Shown here: positions 30,361 through 32,244 of the stretch, piece by piece
Position numbering within the stretch: position 1 is the stretch's first letter
Layout: the number at the start of each line of letters is the position of its first letter
From: Gammaproteobacteria bacterium
GTDB taxonomy: Bacteria > Pseudomonadota > Gammaproteobacteria > Pseudomonadales > Litorivicinaceae
Length of the DNA: 36,689 bases
Assembly: GCA_002731015.1 (NCBI GenBank)
Contig: PBZM01000044.1
Location: 1 to 36,689 of the forward strand
Direction: 5' to 3'
The notes under the pieces: generated by a model
What the model was told of the DNA's origin: nothing
Databases searched by the model: none
The model's input: the letters and a program-made list of their open reading frames with translations, nothing else
Translations under genes and position numbers: made by a program

Positions 30361-31314
30361 TTAGCGATGTTTTTCAGATCGACCAAAGATGCTATTTACT
30401 TCTTGCCGTGTTGGTGGCTGACATCCAACTCTTGTGCAGTTTATACCAGCGGACTGCGCAGAAAATGTCAGAATCTCTGACAACTGGTTCGCGTCCAGTT
30501 GCGCCATTTGGTCCCCGATCAAGTTCAATCTCTCAATTTCTGATAACAACGCCCCATGCAGTGAATCGCCTGCCCCGACGGTATCAGCTATGACTCCCGG
30601 TAACACTGAGGGAACGCGCACGGACACGCCACGGCGGGTTAAACCAACCAGACCATCAGCTCCCATTGTGTAAACACAAAGTTGGGGTGTGTATGCTTCA
30701 GTAAACTTTTCCAGAGCATTATCAGTCCATTCGGGGTAAAGATAATTAAGATCCTCGTCACTGAGTTTGACTATATCAGCTTCAATAAAGAACCGGATCA
30801 TTCCCTTTAAATATTCCTCTCGGTTCTTTGTAATCGACGGACGACAGTTCGGATCGATCGAAATCAGCGCTCCTCGTTGTTTGGCTGCCTGCAAAACTTC
30901 AAACCATGCATCCTGATCTTCTCTCGGAATTAGTGCACAAGATCCAACATGAAAGACCAACATCTGTTGAGGAAATGATTTAACAATGTCCACAACCGGC
31001 ACCTCTCGATCAGCTGTTTCTTTTCGATAGAAGGCGTAGTTAGGATTGCCGGCCTCATCAAAAGAGACGATCGCAAGAGATGAACAGGCTTCTGAACGAG
31101 AATTCGGCCTCAGCCTCACGTTACATTCAGAGAGACGGTCAACCAATAAATCCCCAAAAGAATCTGTGCTTATATTAGAAACATAGAGCACTGGAGAACC
31201 CATCAATCCCACCGCAAGCGCACAATTAACCGTTGAACCACCGGGGAAAGCCTCAAACAATCTTCGCTCACGATCAATCAAATCTACAATAGCATCACCG
31301 CCGATCACGATCAT
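30361..31314 (-). CDS. PfkB-family carbohydrate kinase (fructokinase-like)
   Basis: FPGGSTVNCALAVGLMGSPVLYVSNISTDSFGD; DTVGAGDSLHGALLSEI PfkB signature. Confidence 0.88.
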   Translation of the reverse strand: MIVIGGDAIVDLIDRERRLFEAFPGGSTVNCALAVGLMGSPVLYVSNISTDSFGDLLVDRLSECNVRLRPNSRSEACSSLAIVSFDEAGNPNYAFYRKETADREVPVVDIVKSFPQQMLVFHVGSCALIPREDQDAWFEVLQAAKQRGALISIDPNCRPSITKNREEYLKGMIRFFIEADIVKLSDEDLNYLYPEWTDNALEKFTEAYTPQLCVYTMGADGLVGLTRRGVSVRVPSVLPGVIADTVGAGDSLHGALLSEIERLNLIGDQMAQLDANQLSEILTFSAQSAGINCTRVGCQPPTRQEVNSIFGRSEKHR

Positions 31315-31414: not shown

Positions 31415-31558
31415 AAAAATAAAAACAAAGAAGGTGACTGCGTGGCGCAGCGACAGATAAAAGTTTTCGGGCGTAAAATTCGACATCCATGTCGACGCCC
31501 GAATCCTTCCTTTTGTTCCCAATCCTTTGGGATACCGGAAACCGGCATCGTGTCCTAT
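31415..31558 (-). ncRNA. Candidate CsrA/RsmA-sequestering small RNA (CsrB/RsmY/Z-like)
   Basis: Minus-strand TATAAT at 31570..31565; then AUAGGACACG; hairpin CCCA-AAGGAU-UGGG (31518-31531); AAAAGGAAGGAUU; hairpin UCGAC-AUGGAU-GUCGA (31480-31495) within outer stem TTCGGGCGT/ACGCCCGAA; terminal hairpin GUCGCUGCG-CCA-CGCAGUCAC followed by CUUCUUUGUUUUUAUUUUU. Confidence 0.6.
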
Positions 31559-31860
31559 TTTTTCATTATAACACGATATTTTTCTGGACAAAAAGGCTTT
31601 TAGGCGGAAAATTCCTTGGGAATTGATTAAAAAAAACTATTGAAAAATAATTTATAATAAAGGTCTTAATCTCAATAATTAGCAGTTGGTGCTCTCTGGC
31701 GTCACCACTAGTAAACAATGGACGGGGAGAGAATACAGAAAAACCCAGACCAACGTTTTTACTGCCACTTTAATAAACCAAAGCCAAAAAGCGATTGTAC
31801 TAGCTAGCTGAATTCCCTCTAAAACCGCTGTGATTTTTCGTTGACAAAGGAGCCTCCAAC

Positions 31861-32244
31861 ATGCACTTAAATAAAATTACGATCCTGGTCCACGACATCG
31901 ACGCGGCGGTCCAATTTTTTCGTGACGCCCTTGGTTTAAAATTAATCGAAGATAGCCTCATATCCGAATCCAAGCGGATTGTATGTCTCGCCACATCCGA
32001 CTCAAGGACGGCGTTCAACATTACCAAGCCCAAACACGGAGATGAATTCTTGGTAGGCCGTCAAGCGGGGGATCGAGTTTTCGTGTTCATGGATACTTCA
32101 GACCTAAACCGTGATATGCAAAGATTTCAACATAACCGAGTAGCGATATTCGATGGGCCGAGAACAGAAGACTTCGGCAGATGCGTGATAATAAAAGACT
32201 TGGTAGGAAACAAGTGGGAACTCGTTGAACGTCGATTATCTTGA
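31861..32244 (+). CDS. VOC-superfamily (glyoxalase/bleomycin resistance-like) protein
   Basis: LNKITILVHDIDAAVQFFRDALGLKLIEDS...VIIKDLVGNKWELVER; SD AAAGGAG. Confidence 0.85.
   Translation: MHLNKITILVHDIDAAVQFFRDALGLKLIEDSLISESKRIVCLATSDSRTAFNITKPKHGDEFLVGRQAGDRVFVFMDTSDLNRDMQRFQHNRVAIFDGPRTEDFGRCVIIKDLVGNKWELVERRLS

Follow-up and report, generated by a model that had tools for sequence, protein, structure and literature searches.

CsrB and CsrC of enterics and vibrios (RF00018 and RF00084) are longer than the element described here and have many more sites, and they share with it multiple GGA hairpin loops near the SELEX consensus; the element has no Rfam match to either family. RsmZ/PrrB (RF00166), RsmY (RF00195) and RsmX of Pseudomonas are also ~100-150 nt in length and encoded by single stand-alone genes, and the likeness extends to several ANGGAX-loop hairpins with single-stranded GGA linkers and to the presence of CsrA/RsmA in the genome. 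Unlike those RNAs, the element lacks a sequence or covariance match, a GacA box and GacA/GacS. The TwoAYGGAY RNA motif of Rfam, reportedly described by Weinberg et al. in 2010, consists of two hairpins whose AYGGAY loops contain GGA; it was unmatched in our Rfam scan, and loop 2 of the present element is mostly AAGGAU across homologues, not AYGGAY.

CsrB and CsrC depend on BarA-UvrY, and the CsrA SELEX consensus is RUACARGGAUGU (PMC7652899). In the RsmE/RsmZ structures ANGGAX presented on a stem is the high-affinity site and single-stranded GGA a weaker one (PMC4005645); no better site for CsrA/RsmE is known than such a hexaloop. The Gac system is a gammaproteobacterial hallmark that controls the Csr/Rsm RNAs, known Gac-independent cases being RsmW and RsmV of P. 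aeruginosa, which sequester CsrA/RsmA and are transcribed independently of GacS-GacA (PMC7366521). RsmW and RsmV are P. aeruginosa-specific additions alongside the Gac-controlled RsmY/Z, whereas the present RNA is the only one found, is conserved genus-wide and occurs in a genus in which Gac is undetectable. We consider it highly probable, from sequence comparison, that the element encodes a CsrA decoy small RNA of the CsrB/RsmY/RsmZ kind as a gene in its own right.

Position, promoter-like block and fold of the element

The window (the whole stretch of DNA analysed, 36,689 nt) carries the element on the minus strand of the intergenic region between a pfkB-family gene and a VOC-family gene. 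The features of the region are as follows.

30361-31314, minus strand: pfkB-family sugar kinase gene (PF00294), the downstream neighbour, outside the RNA gene
31415-31451, minus strand: possible terminator (uncertain), a GCUGCG-CCA-CGCAGU hairpin (31451-31437) plus a U-rich tail
31467-31557, minus strand: 91-nt core of the candidate small RNA, with three hairpins and five conserved unpaired GGA motifs; has BLASTN and covariance-model homologues
31467-31502, minus strand: hairpin 3, an outer helix, a 6-nt internal bulge, an inner helix UCGAC/GUCGA and an AUGGAU hexaloop (31485-31490)
31504-31510, minus strand: single-stranded linker GGAAGGA with two GGA motifs, invariant in 13 of 13 homologues
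31518-31531, minus strand: hairpin 2, CCCA-AAGGAU-UGGG, an ANGGAX hexaloop on a stem
31534-31546, minus strand: hairpin 1, CCGG-UUU-CCGG, without GGA
31553-31555, minus strand: 5' unpaired GGA motif (AGGACA), ~4 nt away from the predicted start of transcription
31565-31570, minus strand: -10 hexamer TATAAT, from sequence, with a 15-bp spacer to the -35
31586-31591, minus strand: -35-like hexamer TTGTCC, from sequence
31861-32244, plus strand: VOC/glyoxalase-family gene (PF00903), divergent from the RNA promoter

The original prediction had read a TATAAT -10, a weak TTGTCC -35 and a 15-bp spacer from the minus strand, and the sequence is as quoted there. The weak -35 and the 15-bp spacer are points against a small RNA gene. 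Among the homologues the conserved block opens at CTTxxTGTCC (the -35) and spans the spacer, the -10 and the start region, the DNA upstream of CTTxxTGTCC being divergent. TGTCY of the -35-like hexamer is retained in all 12 homologues that extend this far, and the -10 varies among TANAAT, TATACT and TACAAT. From the -10 spacing, transcription would start at ~31558, and AGGAC at the 5' end is retained in each of the 12 homologues having sequence there. Most homologues share the -35/-10 spacer sequence as well (ATATCGTGATAT-like), and in most the TGTCC and GGACA arms of an inverted repeat flank the -10 region (31552-31590 in the window). The repeat and the conserved spacer may mark a regulator site; a TGTCC...GGACA operator around the -10 was rejected on the grounds that two homologues have TGTCT in place of the TGTCC arm.

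Conservation fades past hairpin 3. The terminator-like hairpin of the original prediction is present (one found versus 0.3 expected by shuffling) but is not conserved, having no consistent counterpart in the homologues. The mature RNA is predicted to be about 95 to 145 nt long, and its 3' end may lie at ~31415.

RNAfold gave three hairpins and drew, inside each hexaloop, an extra A-U pair that leaves a GG-containing tetraloop. The two GGA hexaloops that had been proposed to sit on stems proved real (AAGGAU, 31527-31522, and AUGGAU, 31490-31485). In the two most distant homologues (G020 and G007) the minimum-energy fold differs in part from the shared one; the individual hairpins can form, and the hairpin 1 stem has another sequence that is still able to pair. 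The 161-nt stretch folded with a z-score of -3.5, which was matched by none of 200 shuffles, and the 91-nt core with a z-score of -2.7. Five homologues were folded, giving a z-score of -3.0 for one and modest values (-0.9 to -1.6) for the other four, and thus fold stability by itself is weak evidence. The same holds for GGA density. The five GGA motifs of the original prediction are conserved, although the core contains six, the sixth lying unconserved in the 3' arm of hairpin 2; as the 36.7-kb window holds 20 clusters of at least five GGA per 91 nt (10 per strand), such density alone is ordinary. The case for the element rests on conservation (13 genomes, retained GGA motifs and compensatory pairs).

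Homologues, conserved positions and covariation

The window's genus is OM252 / uncultured Litoricola (Litoricolaceae), which has been named 'Ca. Halomarinus' (PMC8269220). As named records show, it includes HIMB30 and LSUCC0096, two cultured strains that carry the RNA and in which the candidate can be studied. By BLASTN, 13 of the 22 genus genomes have the element, and it is missing from all of 36 further genomes in the family and order. A covariance model derived from the BLASTN homologues recovered the same 13 genus genomes at 62-115 bits, all other hits in the genus scoring no more than 17.9 bits. A search of 295 sampled genomes of the order with this model yielded no convincing homologue beyond the genus; the best hit there (23 bits, G022) overlaps coding sequence, and those of the weak hits that were read look like coding sequence or chance. 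A genome-wide scan with the pattern GGAAGGATTCGSGCRNCGAC gave 34 contigs, of which the 12 from the genus also score with the covariance model and the others do not. The small RNA is most likely single-copy.

Several of the nine genus genomes lacking a hit are fragmentary, and in G002 the contig stops 249 nt past the VOC gene. In G014 nrdB adjoins the VOC gene with 237 nt between them and without the RNA (L132 1860-2140). In that assembly just one CsrA was found as well, and no hit for a LuxR-type regulator, but with a completeness of 87% none of these absences is certain.

An Rfam scan of the window at the gathering threshold gave no hit on the element. The Csr/Rsm families, even at an E-value of 10, failed to match the window or two homologue loci, a scan of the element alone gave no hit above chance, and a search of the genus with RF00166 found nothing. 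By its motifs the RNA most likely falls within the Csr/Rsm functional kind, yet in no described Rfam sequence family.

In alignment A3 all 13 homologues retain GGA in loops 2 and 3, together with the linker GGAAGGA. Invariant columns make up 16 of the 18 GGA columns versus 8 of the 35 other unpaired ones (Fisher p 5e-6, with the reservation that neither columns nor genomes are independent). Loop 3 reads [A/U]CANGGANG[U/A] in every homologue, and its claimed closeness to the SELEX core was borne out by an exact match to ACARGGAUGU in six of the 13.

The stems vary in ways that largely preserve pairing. The outer helix of hairpin 3 has a compensatory G-C to A-U change in about half of the sequences and a U-A to C-G change in two, and hairpin 2 has G-U/A-U changes and, in G021, a compensatory C-G to G-C change. 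No variation occurs in the inner-helix pairs of hairpin 3, which therefore provide no test of the structure. Three pairs have changes on both sides; these amount to nine cells, where shuffles gave 3.1 +/- 1.7, and none of the slid registers was comparable on pairing. Three compensated pairs were also reached by 31 of 500 shuffles. Hence, covariation is supportive of the structure, but not overwhelmingly so. The original prediction had named lost GGA loops and randomly drifting stems as evidence against itself; what the homologues have is loops that are kept and stems that change by compensation.

These data bear on three other explanations. That the element is not a gene but a chance GGA-rich intergenic stretch would fit the abundance of GGA clusters in the window (20) and the modest fold z-scores of several homologues. 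This explanation, to which we give very little credence, is already refuted by the comparative data, in which 13 genomes with differing gene contexts and diverged flanks share invariant motifs and compensatory changes. A small protein gene has next to no likelihood: short open frames do overlap the region, but one- and two-base indels among the homologues shift every frame, and conservation tracks the hairpin loops rather than codons. The overlapping ORF calls had been suspected of being spurious, and the frame-shifting indels uphold that suspicion. The third explanation is a structured small RNA with another role, either base-pairing regulation or binding of an unknown protein ligand, that the GGA motifs would reflect. 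The conservation of the linker GGAAGGAUUCG, as strict as that of the loops, could also stem from a seed region or another ligand. However, what is invariant follows the CsrA rule (ANGGAX on stems, [A/U]CANGGANG[U/A]) and not the pattern of a pyrimidine-rich anti-Shine-Dalgarno seed; where the loops do vary, at N and X, they vary as CsrA sites do. We regard such a role as unlikely and favor the CsrA decoy.

Gene neighborhood

Wherever a homologue has enough flanking sequence, the VOC gene lies on the promoter side. Downstream of the RNA there is no such constancy: on the same strand there is pfkB in five of the 13 homologues and a RelE/XRE pair in one, and in convergent orientation a ROK regulator in three, a PRK-family kinase in one and nrdB in two; the remaining homologue contig ends before the next downstream gene. 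The location "upstream of pfkB" in the original prediction thus holds in the window, but is incidental.

Genes of sugar metabolism are common targets of CsrA, and the RNA could be a CsrA-bound 5' leader that controls the pfkB-family kinase gene in cis. In the five homologues with same-strand pfkB the coding match begins ~240-310 nt away from the 5' end of the RNA. On the other hand, the RNA is equally conserved where the next gene is convergent or belongs to the unrelated RelE/XRE pair, and in the window the terminator-like hairpin separates it from pfkB. We consider a pfkB leader very unlikely; because the downstream gene and its direction vary, the data argue for a stand-alone gene.

The neighborhoods can be explained by a separate RNA gene in the nrdB-VOC interval, beside which varied genes have been inserted. 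The nrdB-to-RNA interval contains different genes in different species: pfkB (with transaldolase in G002), ROK, a PRK-type kinase or RelE/XRE. It looks like a site of cassette exchange (L005, L006, L010, L012 and the window). A search of the nrdB-linked intervals of the sister genus with the RNA model found no counterpart.

CsrA, GacS/GacA and the proposed decoy

A CsrA decoy requires CsrA, the absence of which from the genome had been named in advance as counting against the prediction. Two CsrA genes were found in the window's genome, and at least one is present in 21 of the 22 genus genomes, usually in two copies. CsrA1 scores above the NCBIfam CsrA cut-off and retains the HREEI motif with Arg44. 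CsrA2 is divergent, falls just under that cut-off and, compared with solved CsrA structures, has one extra residue inserted. Of the features of the Csr/Rsm class, the element has two ANGGAX loops on stems, three single-stranded GGA motifs and CsrA in the genome, although its five conserved GGA sites are at the low end for the family. Its own conserved promoter-like block and changing neighbors would fit an independent, non-coding transcription unit, but no terminator is conserved. The CsrB/RsmY/RsmZ-like architecture first proposed from the window is supported by GGA invariance, compensatory stems and the presence of CsrA.

The usual GacS/GacA regulatory context is missing, which is a point against the small RNA reading. 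The sCache_4 domain, the sensor domain of GacS/BarA, is absent from the genus and sister genus and was found in 21 of 31 other sampled genomes of the order. The GacA/UvrY/SirA model scored no higher than 114 bits in the genus, and for the sister genus its best score was 146; the cut-off of 280 was exceeded in 19 of those 31 genomes. The acs-adjacent LuxR-type regulator, considered as a candidate GacA, is nearest ErdR, though under the ErdR cut-off; the other LuxR-type regulators of the genus were FixJ/CsgD-like or unassigned by eye, and none is GacA. Hence, GacS and GacA are apparently absent from the genus. This accounts for the missing GacA box (TGTAAG-N6-CTTACA), which the original prediction had also failed to see: the best match upstream of the element is wrong at four of the 12 fixed positions, and a search upstream of those homologues with upstream sequence found nothing conserved. 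Nowhere in the Litoricolaceae sample (G000-G024) are GacS and GacA recognizable, although the window's genus, at least, retains CsrA.

Given these data, we propose that the RNA would be transcribed from ~31558, and that the two ANGGAX hairpins, the predicted high-affinity sites, would be occupied by CsrA dimers before the linker and the 5' GGA site. In this way mRNA leaders would lose two to three CsrA dimers, and CsrA repression would be relieved. As GacS/GacA is undetectable in the genus, another regulator or growth state probably controls transcription of the RNA and would act via the conserved core promoter. That the Litoricolaceae, or at least OM252, retain a working Csr sponge after loss of GacS/GacA, with an undescribed control acting through an unusually conserved core promoter, seems to us evenly balanced between true and false. 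The RNA is a candidate switch for a central post-transcriptional regulator in a globally distributed genus of marine bacterioplankton, and a Csr RNA kept without detectable GacS/GacA offers a natural case for asking what else drives such RNAs.

In all seven genomes in which the CsrA2 paralogue and the small RNA are on one contig, ~5-27 kb separate the two. The CsrA2 loci are L015 1471-1695 (G000:C49), G020:C4, G003:C29, G001:C1, G008:C10, G018:C1, G019:C3 and G005:C33.
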